Assembly (NCBI GenBank): GCA_005954745.1
Contig: CP040678.1
Span: 248,001-312,000, forward strand
DNA from: Halostella pelagica
GTDB lineage: Archaea > Halobacteriota > Halobacteria > Halobacteriales > Natronoarchaeaceae
Direction: 5' to 3'
DNA: 64,000 nt
The notes beneath the pieces were generated by a model. The model searched no databases. It was not told where the DNA came from and saw only the letters and a program-made list of their open reading frames with translations. Position numbers and translations under genes: made by a program. Every line of letters starts with the position of its first letter. Position 1 is the first letter of the stretch. Positions 8,655 to 38,965 of the stretch are shown here, piece by piece.

Positions 8655-9041
8655 ATGACAAAAAGTGAGCGACCTTGGACAGAGAAAACCCCGGAAGAGT
8701 ACTTTTCCGAAGGTGGTGGGCCAGCCATAACCCGTTCCGATACAGAGTATCCAACAGACATTGGGAGAGAGGCATGGCTGTTGGAACAGGTTCCGAAAAT
8801 TGGCTCAAGTAAAGCCCGAGAGTTGTTACGAAGGTATGGTGTTGTTGCGGAAATACCCTACAAGGAACAGCCAAGACGAGTTGTGGCGAGTGTGAATAAG
8901 GTGAGTTGGGATACTGTTCAGCACCTACAGGCCACATTGGAGCATTTGAACGAAGAGGGGGCGATTAACGGGACTGAACGCGATTCTGACGGAAACCCGT
9001 ACACAGTATTCGAGCCAGCCGTCTTCGTTCAGGAAGATTAG
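8655..9041 (+). CDS. Element protein with helix-hairpin-helix-like motif
   Basis: The product has 128 aa. The middle segment, LEQVPKIGSSKARELLRRYG (about residues 43-62), looks like a helix-hairpin-helix DNA-binding motif of the PxIGxxxAxxLL type. The rest resembles no family I know, and the C-terminal half could be a small winged fold. A DNA-binding role is inferred from the motif only. The codon use is AT-richer than in the chromosomal neighbours, consistent with transfer. It is transcribed away from the 7970-8551 gene. Confidence 0.6.
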   Translation: MTKSERPWTEKTPEEYFSEGGGPAITRSDTEYPTDIGREAWLLEQVPKIGSSKARELLRRYGVVAEIPYKEQPRRVVASVNKVSWDTVQHLQATLEHLNEEGAINGTERDSDGNPYTVFEPAVFVQED

Positions 9042-9175
9042 GAACGTCAAGAGTGGTGCGTGAGCGCGGTCGCCGCCAGAGCGAGTGGTGTTGACCGTCG
9101 CTTCTGACGTGCGCTCTGCGGCTCTGTGCGGCAGTGTGAGCGGCCACTAATTCTTCTCGCGCATTGTCTATAGAG

Positions 9176-9197
9176 TTATAATTCCCTACAATTATAA
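9176..9197. promoter_or_regulatory. AT-rich palindrome upstream of the SWIM-gene promoter
   Basis: TTATAAT (9176-9182) and ATTATAA (9191-9197) form a perfect 7-bp inverted repeat with an 8-base spacer. It lies just upstream of the predicted TATA box, where haloarchaeal activator or repressor sites are found. It may be an operator. Confidence 0.4.
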
Positions 9198-9210
9198 TGC
9201 CACGGCACCT

Positions 9211-9218
9211 ACTATATT
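9211..9218 (+). promoter_or_regulatory. TATA-like box of the SWIM operon
   Basis: ACTATATT stands about 90 bases before the ATG at 9309. Transcription would start near 9240, giving a leader of about 70 bases that contains the inverted repeats at 9258-9307. Such a long leader is unusual in haloarchaea. Confidence 0.45.
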
Positions 9219-9257
9219 GTACGGAGTCACTGTCTCTTCGGGGTAATCTCGCTACGA

Positions 9258-9307
9258 GAAAGCCCGGCGCTTGGGACGCCGGACAGTGGCTTTCGGGAGT
9301 GAAAGCC
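9258..9307 (+). promoter_or_regulatory. Structured mRNA leader with two exclusive hairpins
   Basis: GAAAGCC occurs at 9258-9264 and again at 9301-9307. Its complement GGCTTTC occurs once, at 9288-9294. The first copy can pair with it to form a nested stem closed over an inner CGGCG/CGCCG hairpin (9265-9269 with 9277-9281). The second copy can pair with it instead, across a 6-base loop, ending two bases before the ATG. The two pairings exclude each other and the second would hide the start region. This looks like a translational switch; the ligand or trigger is unknown. Confidence 0.5.
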
Positions 9308-9308
9308 A

Positions 9309-9797
9309 ATGCAAACTACGTCTGCCGAGAGGCATGAGAGTACCGACCTCGAACAGCGCGATGTACGCGCCCTGACGGAGTACATGACGACCCTTCCGCT
9401 CGGGGGCGACGTGTACTCCGTGACCACGCAGAGCGGGTCAGAGTACCGTGTGGACTCCCGTGAGGGACGCTGTACGTGCCCCGACCACGAGTACCGAGAA
9501 GTCCGGTGCAAGCACATCCGCCGTGTCGCCTTCGCCACTGGCGAGCGTCCGGTTCCCGCATGGGTGGACGCCGACGAGGTAGACGCCCAACTTGGGGAAC
9601 ACGTCGAAGAGACGCCGAAGGTCGCCGCGACCGACGGAGGCGTGACTCTCGGAGAGTTCGGTGCTGACGACCGCGACGACGACGACCGTCCAGACGACTG
9701 CGGATGCGCTCCCTGCATGAACGAACTGCCGTGCTGGCCGTGCTACAGGGATGGCTTCGAAGAGCCGAACCCCCACGCGACGGAGGGCGACGAATGA
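9309..9797 (+). CDS. SWIM zinc-finger protein with a second cysteine cluster
   Basis: The product has 162 aa. Residues 55-69 form a SWIM zinc finger (CxCx9CxH: Cys55, Cys57, Cys67, His69), as in GRCTCPDHEYREVRCKHI; SWIM domains bind DNA or proteins and occur in haloarchaeal elements. An acidic linker follows, then a dense Cys cluster (Cys131, 133, 136, 142, 145) that may bind a second metal. It is the first gene of a three-gene unit whose junctions overlap by four bases (ATGA). The upstream structured leader probably controls it. A regulatory role is inferred. Confidence 0.82.
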   Translation: MQTTSAERHESTDLEQRDVRALTEYMTTLPLGGDVYSVTTQSGSEYRVDSREGRCTCPDHEYREVRCKHIRRVAFATGERPVPAWVDADEVDAQLGEHVEETPKVAATDGGVTLGEFGADDRDDDDRPDDCGCAPCMNELPCWPCYRDGFEEPNPHATEGDE

Positions 9798-9931
9798 CGG
9801 ACACTCCGATGTGTCCCGGTTGCGGCAGGGAACTCGAATACGGCGCACTGTTGGATTGCGTGACCGGCCAGCGCGGATGGGCCTGTGACGAGTGCAACGT
9901 GGCCTACTCGTCGCTTGAGGTGGGACAATGA
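9794..9931 (+). CDS. 45-aa zinc-ribbon protein
   Basis: The frame starts with an ATG overlapping the SWIM-gene stop by four bases and encodes MTDTPMCPGCGRELEYGALL followed by a second pair CDEC in a WACDECNVAYSS context. Two CxxC knuckles suggest one treble-clef or ribbon zinc site. It ends in an ATGA overlap with the next gene. Function is unknown; it may be a small nucleic-acid-binding or adaptor protein of the element. Confidence 0.7.
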   Translation: MTDTPMCPGCGRELEYGALLDCVTGQRGWACDECNVAYSSLEVGQ

Positions 9932-10209
9932 CCCGACCGTCTCCGGCGGCGGCTCTGAACGGTGCTCGGACAGGTCACATTTGCGACCGGTGCAATCGAG
10001 GAATCAGAACTGGCGACAAGACGGTCGCCTATGCCACCTACTACGAGCGTGGCGGGTGGGCGCTCCGGCGAATCTGGTGTGACGAGTGCGGTGATAGGGC
10101 TATCAGCAACGGAACGGAAGGCGCTGACGAGGTAGTTGTAGAAGCAGTCTACTGGCAGGGTAGACTCGTCTCGGTGAATACTGTAGACCGGAGCCGTCCA
10201 TCGGATTGA
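9928..10209 (+). CDS. Small zinc-finger protein, third gene of the SWIM unit
   Basis: The product has 93 aa. CDRCNRGI and, about 30 residues later, WCDECGD give two CxxC pairs that can form a zinc site around a basic, aromatic-rich middle. The C-terminal part (EVVVEAVYWQGRLVSV) looks like beta strands. The ATG overlaps the previous stop by four bases. It is followed by about 185 bases without a gene. No family is recognised. Confidence 0.7.
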   Translation: MTRPSPAAALNGARTGHICDRCNRGIRTGDKTVAYATYYERGGWALRRIWCDECGDRAISNGTEGADEVVVEAVYWQGRLVSVNTVDRSRPSD

Positions 10210-10905: not shown

Positions 10906-11628
10906 CTACAGGTCGTCTTCGCTGAAAATCAGCCGTACACTGTTCTCTTCCAGCCACTCGGCCTTATCCTTGTAGTTGGGAACGTGTTCCTCGACTAACT
11001 GCCAGAACGCTCGCCCGTGGTGTTGTTCGGTTAGGTGAGCGAGTTCGTGAACGACGAGATAACCAACAACGTCGGGTGGAGCCATGATAAGCCGCCAGTT
11101 CAGACTGATTGTCCCGCCAGTCGAGCAACTTCCCCACCGTGTACGCTGGTTTCGGAGTTCGAGTTTTTCGTACTCGACACCCATCCGCTCGGCGTAGTGG
11201 TCGGTACGGTCGGTGAGATAGTCCCGCGCCCGGTTCCGGTAGAAGTTTTCGAGAACTTGCTTGACCGACGACTGCTTGACCGCACTCTTTCGGAGCCGAA
11301 TCGAATCTTTGTCTACCCCGTGCTTTCGGCGGGATTCTATGACGATTTCCCGGTCTTCACCGAGGAATGGGAAGCGCTCACCAGCCTCGAAAGTCCGGTC
11401 GGGGACTTGCTTGCGGTAGGTGTCGTACTTCCGTTGCTGGTCTACCACCCACGCCGCGTTCTCTTTCAGCAACCTCAATGGACGAACATCCTCGGACTCG
11501 GGAACGACAACCGTCACGCCGTGTATATCCACGTCAATTCGGGGTTCGGTAGCGTCGGCACTGTGGCGTACCTCGTACTCGATGGGGTTCCCCAACAGGT
11601 CGATTTTCCGAGGTTGTGCTTTAGCCAT
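10906..11628 (-). CDS. YgjP-like (DUF45, M48-type) metallopeptidase of the restriction operon
   Basis: The 240-aa product has the YgjP/DUF45 signature: RTRWGSCS at about residues 163-170 and then HELAHLTEQHHGRAFW, giving an HExxH zinc site (His194, Glu195, His198) with a third His at 203 or 204. Members often sit next to type I restriction genes; their role there is not established. The ATG overlaps the hsdR stop by eight bases (ATGGCTAA), the same overlap as at the other junctions of the operon. A TTG nine bases upstream is a less likely start. Confidence 0.85.
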   Translation of the reverse strand: MAKAQPRKIDLLGNPIEYEVRHSADATEPRIDVDIHGVTVVVPESEDVRPLRLLKENAAWVVDQQRKYDTYRKQVPDRTFEAGERFPFLGEDREIVIESRRKHGVDKDSIRLRKSAVKQSSVKQVLENFYRNRARDYLTDRTDHYAERMGVEYEKLELRNQRTRWGSCSTGGTISLNWRLIMAPPDVVGYLVVHELAHLTEQHHGRAFWQLVEEHVPNYKDKAEWLEENSVRLIFSEDDL

Positions 11629-14596
11629 TGTTGGCAATCAGGTAGTTCCGAATCGCGTCTACGAAATCGTCGTCGTCCTGAATCAAGTGCCCGAGGTCGT
11701 ACTGCTTGACCAGCACATCCAGCAAGATACGCTCGATTTCCGCGATAGTCTGCTGGTTCGTCTTCCACCCGTGGTAGCCACGGTCAACGCGGTCGCGGAA
11801 CTGCGAAACGATTTCTTCAGCCACTTCTTCGGCTTGTTCCTCGGACTCGATAGCCTCGGGTGTCTCTTCGGTCAGGTGGGTATAAATAGCGAACTCGGCG
11901 TCTTCCATCCCCTTCTCGTCGGCCTCGGCTTCTACGTCCAGAATCTCTTCTTCAACGGCCTTGAGCGCTTCAACAGCCTCGGGGTCGCCTATCTCGTCAC
12001 CCTGCCAGCGCTCTACTATGTCGGTCACGCGCTCGCTCAAGCGCTTGTAGCGCGGGTTCTGGTTCTCCCGAGGGTGTAGATGTTCACGGGTCGCGTGGGC
12101 AATCTGCGAGGCCTTCACGCCGGGATTATCCAGCCCTTCCACGTCTTCGAGGTATTCCTCACCGAGTTTGTACGTCGGGAAGTCCCGCTTGATTTCCCCG
12201 ATTTCGACGTTCTCGCTGATTATCTCGCGGGTCTTTTCCTGCATGTCTTCTTCGGGGTCGTCGTCGCCGGACGTGGTTCGCTTGAACGCGACGTGAACCC
12301 GGCTCAACCACTTGTAGTCGTCTTCGATACCGTCCTGAATGAGCCGTTTGTCGGGCGCGACAGCCTCATACAGCGATTGGAGCCGCCGGAAGCCCTGTTT
12401 GAACTGGCGGCGTTCGGGATGGGTGCTGACACGCTCCACCGCCTCGTAGGCGGCTTCTTGAGTGTCGTTCTTCGGAATCCCCTCGAAGATACCCATGACC
12501 GATTCCAACTGGTCTTTGAGGTCGTCGTAGAGTTCGCTCTTGTCGCGGGCGGCGTAGGCCTTCGTCTCGTCGTCGTAGTCCAGTGCCTCGTCGATGTTCT
12601 CGAAGACGCCTTGGAAGTCCACTATCTCGCCGTTCTCCTTCCCCTCGGCAGGCCGATTTGTCCGGGCGATAGCCTGCATGAGCGTGTGGTTCTTGAGGTT
12701 CCGGTCGAGATAGATGGTCTTCAGAATCGGGGCGTCGAAGCCCGTCAACAGCATGTTGTGGACGACCAGCAGTTTCGGGTTCTCGTCCTCTTTGAACGAC
12801 TTGATGATACTGTCGCGCTCGTCGGGGTCTGTGTGGAACTGCTGAATCAAGTCCGGGTCGTCGTTGGTGGTCGTGTAGAGAACTTCCACCTCTTCCTCGC
12901 CGCGACGGTCGATTAGTCGTTCGCCGTACATGGCGGCTGACCGGCGGCTCGGTGTGACGACCATCCCCTTCCAGCCGTTCGGGGAAACGTGGTCGGTATA
13001 GTGCTGGTCGATTTCCTCGACGGCCTTGTCTACACGGGGTTCGATTTCTGCGAGCGTGGTCGTGTTGACCGCCTCGCGGATGAACTCGCGCTTCTCGTCT
13101 TTGATGAGGCCTCGAAACTCTTGGTCGAACTCTTCGTCAAGCCCGGCCTCGTCAATCTTCCACTCCATTTCGTGCCGGAGCGTGAAGTAAACGGGCAGAA
13201 TCAGGCCGTCCTCGATACCTTCTTTGACCGTGTACTGGTGTAGGTACCGTTCGCCGGTTCGGTAGTCTTCACCGTCGGGTGAGAACTCACGGAAGGTGTT
13301 TCGGGCCTTCTGTGTCTCACCTTCCCTTACGGGGGTACCGGTGAAGCCGAAGTGGTAGCAGTCCGGAAGCGCGTTGTCGAGACGACTCCCGAGGTCGGCT
13401 TCCATGAATCGGTGGGCCTCGTCGCTCATGACGATTACCTCGTCGTTGCCTTGCGCGTCCGGCTCTACGTCTTGGAACTTCTGAATGGTCGTAAGAACGA
13501 GTTCGCTCTGGCCCTCTTCTATGAGTTCTTCGAGATGGTCGATAGAGTCGGCTTCCGTCCAGCGTTCGAGGGAGAGATTCGCCAACTGGTCGCGCATTTG
13601 GGAGTTCAGTTTGTCCGTGTCCACGATAATGAAGACCTGCGGGTTGTCGGCCATGTTTCGGGACAGCAGGTTCTCGGCGGCGTAGAGCATGGTGAAGGAC
13701 TTCCCTGACCCCTGTGTGTGCCAGATAAGGCCGGTCTTGTCCTCGCCCTTAGCCACCCGGTCGAGAATCGCGTTCACGGCGTAGTACTGCATGTACCGAG
13801 GGACAATTTTCGCGTCCCCGCCAGCGCGGCGCTCGAAGAAGACGAAGTTCTTCAGCAGGTCGAGAAGCGAGCCGGGATTGCATAGCGCCTTCACCGCCTT
13901 CCGCATTTCGTTGTCCTCGGCGTACTCGTCGGGGGCGTCGTTCCACGGCTCGTAGAACTCGCGGGGCGCACCGACCGCGCCGTAACGCAATTCCATCGTG
14001 TCGGCGGCGACATTGAACAGGCCGGGGGCGAACAGCCGGGGAACGTTCTCTTGGTAGGCCAGCAGGTCGCTCACGGCGTCGTGCCAGTCGTTGTCCTGTG
14101 CCCGGCTCTTGAGTTCCATCGTGACGAGCGGAATCCCGTTGACGAAGAGGTTCACGTCCGGGCGGATGGTCGTCTCCCGCGACACCGAGAACTGATTCAC
14201 GGCGTGGAAGGTGTTGTTCTCGGGGTTCTCGTAGTCTATCAGGTCTACGTAGACGGTCTTCGTCACCCCATCGGGGCGTCGGACGGAGAAGGTCTTCCCC
14301 TTGGTCAGCAGTTGGTAGAAGGCCCGATTGCCGTCTATCAGGTTCTCGCTGTCGAGGTCGCGCTTCAGGGACGAAATGAATTTCTCGACGTTTTCCTCGG
14401 TCACGTCCTTGTTCAGCGCTATGACCTGTTCAGCCAGTAAGTCCCAATAGACGATTTCGTGGCTCTGTCGGTCGTATGCGGCGTCGAGGGCGCTTGCGCC
14501 ACGGTCGCCGTCCTCTCCGTAGGTATCCCACCCGACGGTATTGAGCCACGAGAGAAGCGAGTGTTCAACGCCCTCTTCGGATGGGTGGTCAGCCAT
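11621..14596 (-). CDS. hsdR: Type I restriction enzyme, endonuclease/translocase subunit HsdR
   Basis: HsdR cleaves DNA after ATP-driven translocation, together with HsdM and HsdS. The product has 991 aa, full length. The N-terminal PD-(D/E)xK nuclease shows RPDVNLF (Asp147) and MELKS (Glu161, Lys163). The SF2 motor follows: Walker A HTQGSGKS (about 293-300), DEAH at 392-395, FGFTGTP motif III, and a second RecA domain with LLTGFDAPIL and QAIARTNR. The C-terminal 250 residues are helical and probably bind HsdM. The start overlaps the hsdS stop by eight bases. All key residues are present, so it is probably active. Confidence 0.95.
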   Translation of the reverse strand: MADHPSEEGVEHSLLSWLNTVGWDTYGEDGDRGASALDAAYDRQSHEIVYWDLLAEQVIALNKDVTEENVEKFISSLKRDLDSENLIDGNRAFYQLLTKGKTFSVRRPDGVTKTVYVDLIDYENPENNTFHAVNQFSVSRETTIRPDVNLFVNGIPLVTMELKSRAQDNDWHDAVSDLLAYQENVPRLFAPGLFNVAADTMELRYGAVGAPREFYEPWNDAPDEYAEDNEMRKAVKALCNPGSLLDLLKNFVFFERRAGGDAKIVPRYMQYYAVNAILDRVAKGEDKTGLIWHTQGSGKSFTMLYAAENLLSRNMADNPQVFIIVDTDKLNSQMRDQLANLSLERWTEADSIDHLEELIEEGQSELVLTTIQKFQDVEPDAQGNDEVIVMSDEAHRFMEADLGSRLDNALPDCYHFGFTGTPVREGETQKARNTFREFSPDGEDYRTGERYLHQYTVKEGIEDGLILPVYFTLRHEMEWKIDEAGLDEEFDQEFRGLIKDEKREFIREAVNTTTLAEIEPRVDKAVEEIDQHYTDHVSPNGWKGMVVTPSRRSAAMYGERLIDRRGEEEVEVLYTTTNDDPDLIQQFHTDPDERDSIIKSFKEDENPKLLVVHNMLLTGFDAPILKTIYLDRNLKNHTLMQAIARTNRPAEGKENGEIVDFQGVFENIDEALDYDDETKAYAARDKSELYDDLKDQLESVMGIFEGIPKNDTQEAAYEAVERVSTHPERRQFKQGFRRLQSLYEAVAPDKRLIQDGIEDDYKWLSRVHVAFKRTTSGDDDPEEDMQEKTREIISENVEIGEIKRDFPTYKLGEEYLEDVEGLDNPGVKASQIAHATREHLHPRENQNPRYKRLSERVTDIVERWQGDEIGDPEAVEALKAVEEEILDVEAEADEKGMEDAEFAIYTHLTEETPEAIESEEQAEEVAEEIVSQFRDRVDRGYHGWKTNQQTIAEIERILLDVLVKQYDLGHLIQDDDDFVDAIRNYLIANNG

Positions 14597-15884
14597 GCTG
14601 TGCGATTTCCTCCGGAACCTTGATGTTCGCGTCGGTGGTTCGGACTGTTCCAGACAGCAGGTCTTGCATGAGGCCCTGCTTTAGACGGCGGAGGCGTTCC
14701 ACTTCAGATTCAGAGTGTTCGGCCTGTTCATCGAATATAGAAAGTGCCTCCGCTATCTCTTCTTGCTCTTCTCTTGGCGGCACCGGTACCTTGAGATTCA
14801 TCAAATCGCCCTGCGAGATACTCTTGATGTTCCCCGTCGTCGTAATCCGCTTTATCGACTTGACCCCGATTTCGCTGTTGAAGTACTGTGCGTAGAACAT
14901 GGGGTTAACCTCATCGTTCAGTCGCACCTGAACCATGTTCGATTCCACAACTGCCGTTTCGTCCATTTCAGGCACATACGTACAGTCGCCAGCACCCCAA
15001 CCCGCTTGCGCGTGCCTTGCGAAGACTAAATCCCCTTCAGCCGTCGCGTACTTGTCTATATCATCCTCGTCAAGATGAACACGCTCGCTGATGGGTTCGT
15101 CCAGCGTTACCCCGCCAAATATATCACCCATTTTGATGATTGGATAAGGGCCACCATAGTCGTCGCTTTCTACGTAGATACCGTTCTGGCTTAATTCGAC
15201 TAACTCCGAGAACTCTCGAACGTCCCAATGTGCCGGGAGTTCCCCCATCCATGCGCTCTTTGTTTTGGGGCTTCCAATGCCCTCGTGTATGAGGCTTTGA
15301 GCCACTCCCTTCTTCGCAAGTTCAGTTTGCTCACGGACTTGTTCGGTTATCTGAATCGCTCTGTCGATGTTATAGAGTACCGTAGCGATTCGACGCTGTT
15401 CTTCAAGCGAGGGAAGACCGAACTCGAAGTTGCTGAAAAGGTTCCACGAGGTGCGTGGCATACGAGTACCAGCGGAGGTACGTCTCCCGTAGTCGTAGGC
15501 TGACTTTGAACTCAATCGGTACAGCAGGTACTTTGCGTTGATACCCTCTTCCGCGACGATTGGGAATATATCAGTCGAAGCAACGCCCTCGAAATCGGGC
15601 TGTGCGGATTTCTCAAGGTTGGGCCGGAGTTTTGCGAACAGAATATCTCCGGCCTCAAAACGTCGTTTTGTGCTTGATAGGCCGTCAACCGGTTCCCACT
15701 CCGGGTACGGTGTGTTGGGGTCGATATGTTCGAGTCCGACATGCCTATCCAAGTCCACTTCCTTCGGGTCAACGTTTTCCGACCGCTTTCGAGATACATC
15801 TTCAAGCCGCACCTCTCGCCACCTCTGTCCCTGTTCGTCCTCTGAATCATCCAGTCTCTCGTCCAGTCCGACTTCTTCACTCAT
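14589..15884 (-). CDS. hsdS: Type I restriction-modification specificity subunit HsdS
   Basis: The product has 431 aa with the usual two-fold plan. The first target-recognition domain spans about residues 20-160. The central conserved helix follows SLEEQRRIATVLYNIDRAIQ. The second target-recognition domain begins at GELPAHWDVREFSEL (about 220-375). The distal conserved region is PPREEQEEIAEALSIFDEQ. The two half-domains differ, so the target should be a bipartite asymmetric sequence; it cannot be read from the protein. The start overlaps the hsdM stop by eight bases (ATGAGTGA). GC content is lower than in hsdM or hsdR, as often seen in exchanged specificity domains. Confidence 0.94.
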   Translation of the reverse strand: MSEEVGLDERLDDSEDEQGQRWREVRLEDVSRKRSENVDPKEVDLDRHVGLEHIDPNTPYPEWEPVDGLSSTKRRFEAGDILFAKLRPNLEKSAQPDFEGVASTDIFPIVAEEGINAKYLLYRLSSKSAYDYGRRTSAGTRMPRTSWNLFSNFEFGLPSLEEQRRIATVLYNIDRAIQITEQVREQTELAKKGVAQSLIHEGIGSPKTKSAWMGELPAHWDVREFSELVELSQNGIYVESDDYGGPYPIIKMGDIFGGVTLDEPISERVHLDEDDIDKYATAEGDLVFARHAQAGWGAGDCTYVPEMDETAVVESNMVQVRLNDEVNPMFYAQYFNSEIGVKSIKRITTTGNIKSISQGDLMNLKVPVPPREEQEEIAEALSIFDEQAEHSESEVERLRRLKQGLMQDLLSGTVRTTDANIKVPEEIAQHG

Positions 15885-31102: not shown

Positions 31103-31894
31103 TTACACAGTGATCGCGTCAGGCTTCACCGGTCTCGACTTTTCCCGGCAGGTTTCGAAGAGGTCGACTGCCCATGCGCAGACTGTCTCGTCGTCAGTTA
31201 TCAGTCCAGCTTTGAGAACCCCCTGCTTGTCAGTGAGGTTAATTCCGACGGTGCCGTCGACGATCCCAACCGAAATCGGGATCTCCTCGCAGATGGAATA
31301 GCGCGCGTTGTCCTCATCGAGCATCTCGCGGAACTGCTGTGCCGAGCGCGGATGGTTTCGGATGACATCTAAGGCCTCAGGTGTGAGGACCAGTTCGACT
31401 CGCGTGTCTCCGTGCACGGTCAACTTCCACTGGTTCTCAATGAATACTGGGGCGGCCGCACGTGCGATGCCCCGCACCCAATCGCCGGAGCGATGGAATT
31501 CGACTATCCGTCGTATGAGCGCGGTCGCGTCACTTCCATCGAGAAGGATGATCTCGGCGTCGCGGAGACATCGGACGTCGAACGTCACTATATCGGTCGG
31601 TAACCACTGCAAGGGTTCACGTAACTGATTCTCGACCTCCATCTCTTCCATCAGTTGTGTAAACTCGTCACACACCCATTCGCCGAGAGGAGTCATCTCG
31701 TACGATTGTCCCGAATTCTCGATCCAATTGCGATCCTCGAATTCGCGGAGAATCCGCGCGATGGTTACCCGAGACGCATCCACTTGGTCGCGGACCTCGT
31801 TTCGGCTCCGTCGCCCCTCGACGAGCGTCTCAAAGACCGCCACCCGGTTCTCCGAGTTCGCGAGAAACGCGATGTCGTCGAGTGCGGAATTCAT
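31103..31894 (-). CDS. Winged-helix transcriptional regulator (paralog 1)
   Basis: The product has 263 aa. The N-terminal 70 residues are a winged helix: FLANSENRVAVFETLVEGRR, then SRNEVRDQVDASRVTIARILREFEDRNWI as the recognition helix and wing start. A larger C-terminal domain (about 80-260) is shared with the divergent gene at 32555 (LREPLQWLPTDIVTF compared with LRDSWHWLPTDASGF), and ends in a sensor-like beta-rich region. It belongs to a haloarchaeal ArsR/HTH-type regulator family; the ligand is unknown. The ATG at 31894 aligns with the paralog's domain start better than 31969. Confidence 0.85.
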   Translation of the reverse strand: MNSALDDIAFLANSENRVAVFETLVEGRRSRNEVRDQVDASRVTIARILREFEDRNWIENSGQSYEMTPLGEWVCDEFTQLMEEMEVENQLREPLQWLPTDIVTFDVRCLRDAEIILLDGSDATALIRRIVEFHRSGDWVRGIARAAAPVFIENQWKLTVHGDTRVELVLTPEALDVIRNHPRSAQQFREMLDEDNARYSICEEIPISVGIVDGTVGINLTDKQGVLKAGLITDDETVCAWAVDLFETCREKSRPVKPDAITV

Positions 31895-34504: not shown

Positions 34505-34653
34505 GACGAGAAAAGTTCCTCGGCCTCACCGGATCGTAGGCGCTGAAGATCGAATACCGCCCTGCATTCGTCGGTGCGTCCAGTAGCGCGACTCCGTCCG
34601 GGACAGCATAAACAAGAACCTATTCGCTTCCCGATGCGCGTACCCTTCAGTAG

Positions 34654-38608: not shown

Positions 38609-38965
38609 TCACTCTGTGATGTCGAAGTATCGGTCGTAGTGGTTCGCACACCCCGGATTGAACGCAGCGCCGCAGTGCGGACACGCGTCATCGCAGTATA
38701 AATACGCCCGAACGGAAAGCGTCGTCCCGCAAGCGCCGCACAGAACCGCCGCCTCGTCGAACGCGTCGCGCGGCCACCGCTCGATATCGTGGTCGGCGAC
38801 CGCCTCGTGGCAGCGGAAACAGGGGTAGTACGCGCCGCAGCAGGCGAACTGTAGCGCGACCACGTCTCTCGGGCCGTCGTAATGGACACACCGTGTCTCG
38901 TGGTCCACTTCGACGCCGCGGACTGTCTCACGGCCGACTGTAACCGACACTTCTCGCTGCGTCAC
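38609..38965 (-). CDS. CHY zinc-finger protein
   Basis: The product has 118 aa. It shows the CHY-finger order: ETRCVHYDGPRDVVALQFAC, then CCGAYYPCFRCHEAVADHD, a tryptophan-rich WPRDAFDEAAVLCGACG, and a terminal ACPHCGAAFNPGCANHYDRYF. Conserved Cys and His residues can bind three zinc ions. Stand-alone CHY proteins in bacteria and archaea have no settled function (in eukaryotes the domain is in ubiquitin ligases and chaperone-like proteins). Confidence 0.9.
   Translation of the reverse strand: MTQREVSVTVGRETVRGVEVDHETRCVHYDGPRDVVALQFACCGAYYPCFRCHEAVADHDIERWPRDAFDEAAVLCGACGTTLSVRAYLYCDDACPHCGAAFNPGCANHYDRYFDITE

Follow-up and report, generated by a model that had tools for sequence, protein, structure and literature searches.

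Haloarchaeal mRNAs are mostly leaderless, and a leader that can apparently fold in two ways in front of a start codon raises the question of what it does and how it came to be there. Here this question is posed by an operon in the window, the whole 64,000-nucleotide stretch of Halostella pelagica contig CP040678.1 that was analysed. Its first gene (9309..9797, + strand) encodes a 162-aa SWIM zinc-finger protein (PF04434 above its cut-off). A 45-aa Cys-rich ORF (9794..9931, +) overlaps the SWIM stop codon (ATGA) and is likely translationally coupled to it, and the stop codon of this ORF is overlapped in turn by a 93-aa Cys-rich ORF (9928..10209, +). Upstream, 8655-9041 lies on the same strand as the leader and has no Pfam match. 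Type I restriction R and S genes adjoin the operon (11621-15884, -). A preliminary description of this DNA had correctly located two copies of GAAAGCC (9258-9264 and 9301-9307) and one of the complement GGCTTTC (9288-9294) ahead of the SWIM gene, and had proposed that both copies compete for the complement within a leader of about 70 bases.

Predicted fold of the SWIM operon leader

The best promoter matrix match in 9150-9240 is a BRE and TATA box, TTCCCTACAATTATAA (9182..9197, +; anchor T at 9192), whose score of 11.5 is close to the family median of 11.9 and which predicts a transcript start at about 9221. Together with a match to the covariance model R2 described below, this gives a predicted leader RNA of 88 nt (9221..9308, +), longer than first proposed. 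The 5' strand of helix P0, GGAGTCACTGTC (9223..9234), pairs at 12 of 12 positions, G-U included, with its 3' strand, GACAGTGGCTTT (9282..9293). P0 thereby closes a three-way junction with two hairpins, P1 (9241..9265; GGGU..UCUCG CUA CGAGA..GCCC), which includes the first GAAAGCC copy, and P2 (9266..9280; GGCG-CUUGGGA-CGCC), whose loop carries a YUNR U-turn motif (UUGG). In the alternative predicted helix, P3, TGGCTTTC (9287..9294) pairs with GAAAGCCA (9301..9308), which lies flush against the ATG at 9309, and the loop GGGAGT (9295..9300) holds a Shine-Dalgarno-like GGAG. The last bases of the P0 3' strand double as the P3 5' strand, so P3 and the outer half of P0 are mutually exclusive.

The predicted energies of the P0 and P3 states are identical, at -35.7 kcal/mol each, although nearest-neighbour energies apply poorly at molar salt. 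Taken alone, the window leader folds only moderately better than shuffled sequences (z about -2.5), and therefore comparison with relatives had to decide; the strong evidence for the predicted structure is comparative, not its folding energy.

The leader matches a widespread haloarchaeal RNA family

We gathered SWIM homologs from haloarchaeal genomes; 31 of them, spread over many genera, have a common upstream layout. Each of these leaders was folded as a nascent transcript that stops where the P3 5' strand ends, and with small departures all gave one architecture, a long P0 closing P1 and P2. Once complete, the transcript has P3, immediately before the ATG, as an alternative, and the P0/P3 overlap runs through the whole set. 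Because P3 was out of register when all leaders were aligned with MAFFT, a first covariance model, R1, was trained on nine leaders and omitted P3. R1 matched 183 of 391 haloarchaeal genomes and scored the window leader at 20.1 bits (E 0.0061, search within the window). A second model, R2, built from an alignment of 114 R1 matches that did not include the window leader, matched 209 of the 391 genomes and 67 of 86 genera, and found the window leader (9223-9293) with 36.5 bits and E 4.9e-7. In a phylum-wide sample of 295 genomes there were no matches outside the order, all 22 matching genomes belonging to it. By these model matches, the predicted 88-nt leader belongs to a family of putative cis-regulatory RNAs that is widespread in haloarchaea.

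The 114-match alignment is itself fitted to the model and has six antisense or spurious rows; in it, 96.8% of cells are paired against 78.6% in shuffles, changes on both sides occur in 22 of 23 pairs, and 466 cells carry double changes, where shuffles give 137. Sliding one strand by a single column lowers the paired cells to about 40%. Cells are paired at 97.4% in P1 (113 rows) and 99.1% in P2, the P0 helices covary across the family, and G-U pairs replace G-C and A-U in the family helices. P3, which lies outside the model, ends 0-1 nt from the ATG in 95 of 97 leaders (gap 0 in 84, 1 in 11), and its own-pairing score is 16.2, compared with 11.2 ± 0.3 (maximum 11.85) when strands are swapped between leaders. 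The energies of the two states are near balance in the family and exactly equal in the window. Shine-Dalgarno 4-mers stand between the end of P0 and the ATG in 59 of 100 leaders (shuffled 30.2 ± 4.5), which supports a ribosome-binding sequence that would be open in the P0 state and closed in the P3 state. YUNR turns are typical of antisense recognition, and the P2 loop has one, in sense or antisense, in 87 of 108 leaders (shuffled 34.6 ± 4.9). The conserved unpaired bases are C-U-C-G in the junction, an A in the P1 loop (103/106) and a U in the P2 loop (98/108).

The design also holds in the weaker matches, inspected singly, some of which have an additional hairpin in the P3 loop. Such a hairpin marks a one-family subgroup (L178, at G040:C67:50100-51600, and L179, L180, L181 and L183) that precedes short Arg-rich ORFs of the type MI(P/A)YxxxR.K.LAR.. 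and can occur as tandem copies about 494 bp apart; in L179 the Arg-rich ORF overlaps a Zn-type ORF. The genome of the window holds a second copy of the RNA (L177, G000:C1:1055661-1055727, -) before a Cys-rich protein, MNKSNPETQEGDDSSLIEDIYQINYISLGEGAATCQVCG. Relatives also lie on plasmids of Halobacterium and Haloarcula marismortui, and a short-P0 copy on pNRC200 of Halobacterium NRC-1 (L171 1921-2004, before VNG_RS11530) is missed by R2. On the Haloarcula marismortui plasmid pNG500 the leader lies at about 31747-31818, and the ATG on pNRC200 is at about position 219773 of its record. The short-P0 subtypes further comprise L016-L026 and the leaders of BJ1 and Humcor1 described below.

Genes and surroundings of the leaders

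The first gene behind the leader carries a SWIM motif in 44 of 95 cases; the other 51 encode small proteins rich in Cys, proteins bearing twin-arginine signals and unknown proteins. One cluster may hold several leader copies. Some SWIM homologs lack this leader, L022, L028 and L031 among them; these three, with L030 and L032, have SWIM genes behind another GC-rich leader that looks structured, for example GCCCCAGYGGGGTGAGGGGCGTCC...CGCCTGTC. By eye, L085, L087 and L088 lie near nuclease-like or Cas-like genes.

A divergent gene for a small winged-helix protein is present at at least 28 of the 50 loci with enough upstream sequence, while the window locus has none upstream of 9182. The TATA box is flanked by operator-like repeats. 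Within the 60 bases upstream of P0 in L052-L086, direct or inverted repeats of differing sequence stand on both sides of the TATA box, and these are probably operators of the divergent winged-helix proteins.

An in-frame motif reads as a promoter facing the leader

Unrelated genes behind the leader have a motif in common, CWWGARNSYNNCG, at +24 to +36, counted from the A of the ATG. Its most constant positions are A28 (99/106), C35 (101/106) and G36 (100/106), and position 26, a third codon position, is A or T in 102 of 106. Conservation at third codon positions excludes a shared N-terminal peptide as the cause, and the motif therefore acts at the nucleotide level. Pairing of the motif with the leader was also considered and rejected, because the two are no more complementary than shuffled sequences and do not covary.

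A weight matrix derived from the sense promoters, run along the antisense strand, gave one sharp peak at +28 (mean score 3.1; background -14.9, sd 3.2). Of 80 offsets, this position scored highest in 80 of 106 relatives (1.3 by chance) and was among the top three in 101. Because of this peak, the motif reads as a promoter that faces back over the leader and would start transcription at the base before the ATG. This predicted promoter is weak, with a median score of 3.5 against 11.9 for the sense promoters. In the SWIM gene of the window, +28 is likewise the best of the 80 offsets (score 3.9). The predicted antisense promoter there occupies 9333..9345 (-; antisense CGGTACTCTCATG), and by the anchor+29 rule introduced below the predicted cis-antisense RNA (9221..9308, -) would begin at 9308 and be complementary to the leader.

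Probable relatives in halovirus immunity regions

The halovirus phiH1 has an antisense system, T1/T(ant), for which the source is Stolt & Zillig 1993 (PMID 7683366, as relayed in PMC6210493 and PMC4284463). Its annotated mapped starts are 38582 for T1 and 38732 for the antisense T(ant), with the ATG at 38733. The anchor+29 rule returns both exactly and gives 34555 for a third transcript, T4, mapped at 34556; the 29-nt spacing was taken from phiH1, and what is independent of this choice is that a single spacing accounts for the three mapped starts and that the antisense match of phiH1 lies at +28, the position seen in the other genes. In phiCh1, the leader has P0 AGAGCAAGCG/CGCTTGCTC and GCTC/GAGC flush at the ATG; the P0/P3 overlap is kept with altered letters, and A28, C35 and G36 are kept in a different N-terminus. 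By inspection, BJ1 and Humcor1 have a short-P0 version between a leftward gene, annotated as winged-helix in BJ1, and the early operon. In BJ1 (L184 1671-1722) the P3-flush ATG at 1722 lies 17 codons inside the annotated ORF7; the annotated GTG start is probably 17 codons too early, and the ATG fits better.

R2 does not detect phiH1, BJ1 or Humcor1, whose membership in the family rests on inspection, and BLAST with the consensus leader and a DNA pattern gave no matches among phages and viral contigs because the viral copies are divergent subtypes. Since the early-lytic leaders of phiH1 and phiCh1 have overlapping P0 and P3 helices, an ATG flush with P3 and the motif in frame, the leader module probably arose in viruses, in early operons and immunity regions, and from there reached host islands and plasmids.

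Alternative explanations

The switch of the preliminary description, in which GGCTTTC alternates between the copies at 9258 and 9301, draws on perfect 7-bp complementarity to both in the window. The half of it that is P3, before the start codon, is a real and conserved pairing. The one with the first copy is coincidental: pairing at 7 of 7 positions with the P3 5' strand is found for the pre-ATG segment in 36 of 107 leaders and for the P0 5' strand in 37, and for the 9258 segment in none. It is already gone in the close relatives L034 and L007, where P3 is GGCCTTC/GAAGACC, and the first GAAAGCC copy is accounted for by the conserved purine-AA of the P1 loop and the 3' strand of P1. When forced, the fold reaches only -28.9 kcal/mol, 6.8 kcal/mol worse than the P0 or P3 state, and we give this arrangement next to no credence. 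Two mutually exclusive stems thus do exist, conserved in homologs as had been put forward for checking, with P0 (9223-9234/9282-9293) and not the 9258 stem as the second one. The description left control at either translation or transcription; a structured, switch-like leader is strongly supported, and translational control is the natural reading because P3 abuts the start codon in nearly all relatives, a position that gives no support to a terminator or attenuator. The upstream partner P0, the wide family, the antisense promoter and the viral connection were all absent from that description.

Among the other explanations, a metabolite or ion riboswitch, with the junction as aptamer, a ligand choosing P0 or P3 and the antisense promoter incidental, has the most to recommend it, since the layout resembles an aptamer with an expression platform and the unpaired bases listed above are conserved. 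We nevertheless consider it unlikely. The controlled genes have no evident common pathway, SWIM genes being joined by many unrelated small proteins, the variation of the P2 loop fits YUNR antisense recognition, and the bases of the antisense promoter rank among the most conserved features. As the preliminary description had anticipated, no known riboswitch class is recognised: Rfam gave only chance matches to the window leader (up to E 5) and none at gathering score to three related clusters. Autoregulation through binding of the SWIM protein to its own leader would suit the commonest first gene and leaves the 51 of 95 without the motif unexplained, as well as the SWIM homologs without this leader; it is very improbable. 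Still harder to believe is an element acting as DNA, either a recombination site or operator palindromes, even though inverted repeats are present, operator-like repeats surround the TATA box and the family occurs on plasmids, viruses and islands. Against it stand the fixed position between TATA box and start codon, the strand common to two helices and the replacement of G-C and A-U by G-U pairs.

Proposed mechanism

We consider it quite likely that the leader family is a translational switch controlled by a cis-antisense RNA. Completion of P0 would leave the Shine-Dalgarno-like loop and the start region single-stranded and the operon translatable (ON), whereas formation of P3 would close both (OFF). 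The antisense RNA may pair with the leader, probably from the P2 loop, and so silence the message, in parallel with phiH1, where T(ant) exposes the T1 leader to an RNase that removes the ribosome-binding region of T1 (review PMC4284463). For the window leader, antisense control is extrapolated from phiH1, the one member in which antisense transcription has been shown, by others. In the window the leader would govern SWIM translation, with the overlapping downstream ORFs following by translational coupling through ATGA. The complete model joins a bistable junction leader to a full-length cis-antisense RNA whose promoter lies in codons 9-13, in more than 65 haloarchaeal genera; it would derive from halovirus lysis/lysogeny control, be reused by host islands and plasmids, and by its choice between P0 and P3 decide which of the two, ribosome or antisense RNA, takes the start region. 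To this whole we assign an even chance.

According to a dRNA-seq study, control via structured leaders is not typical in haloarchaea (PMC4983044). With the present family, about half of the sampled haloarchaeal genomes have a structured leader that is probably under antisense control. A lone observation, made in one virus in 1993, becomes a general system open to testing, and a puzzling nucleotide motif within unrelated genes is accounted for. Its many natural variants are available for the study of archaeal RNA switches, and the plasmid copies in Halobacterium and Haloarcula marismortui allow laboratory work.

Comparison with known systems

We found no paper describing the family in the open-access literature; a partial description in the original phiH papers is possible. 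The antisense principle in phiH1 is already known. What appears to be new is the bistable fold with its conservation, the spread of this fold into host genomes and the antisense promoter inside the reading frame. The published account of T1/T(ant), as relayed in the later articles, concerns one virus and describes no conserved fold, switch or wider family. T1/T(ant) shares with the family a transcript start at the base of P0, a strand that serves both P0 and the stem next to the ATG, an antisense start one base ahead of the ATG (predicted at 9308, -, in the window), and A28, C35 and G36 in frame at equal distance. The T1 leader differs in its length of 151 nt, its longer P0 and P1 and a P3 of 4-5 bp, and the phiCh1 leader is also longer, with a P3 of only about 4-5 bp. 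The immunity region of the phiH1 type has a divergent winged-helix repressor gene, shared by the relatives counted above and missing from the window locus.

The T4 leader of phiH1, opposite repR, folds as the same junction: its mapped start is the first base of a 16-bp P0, it has P1, a P2 with a CUGGUA loop and a divergent repressor, and it has a counterpart in phiCh1. It differs in that its P3, GCCTTC/GAAGGC, does not stand before an ATG and no in-frame antisense motif is seen.

Translational riboswitches and archaeal r-protein leaders (PMC7247131) resemble the family in that alternative stems expose or close the start region. The haloarchaeal family is set apart from them by its antisense promoter and by having no common regulated pathway, no known ligand and no Rfam match. 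A parallel in design is offered by the antisense systems of plasmid copy-number control, CopA/CopT and pMV158 RNAII, which likewise combine a structured leader, a countertranscript and a U-turn loop. They are bacterial and have no homology to the haloarchaeal leader, which is distinguished from them by its predicted P0/P3 switch at the start codon and by an archaeal promoter, as we read the motif, inside the reading frame.
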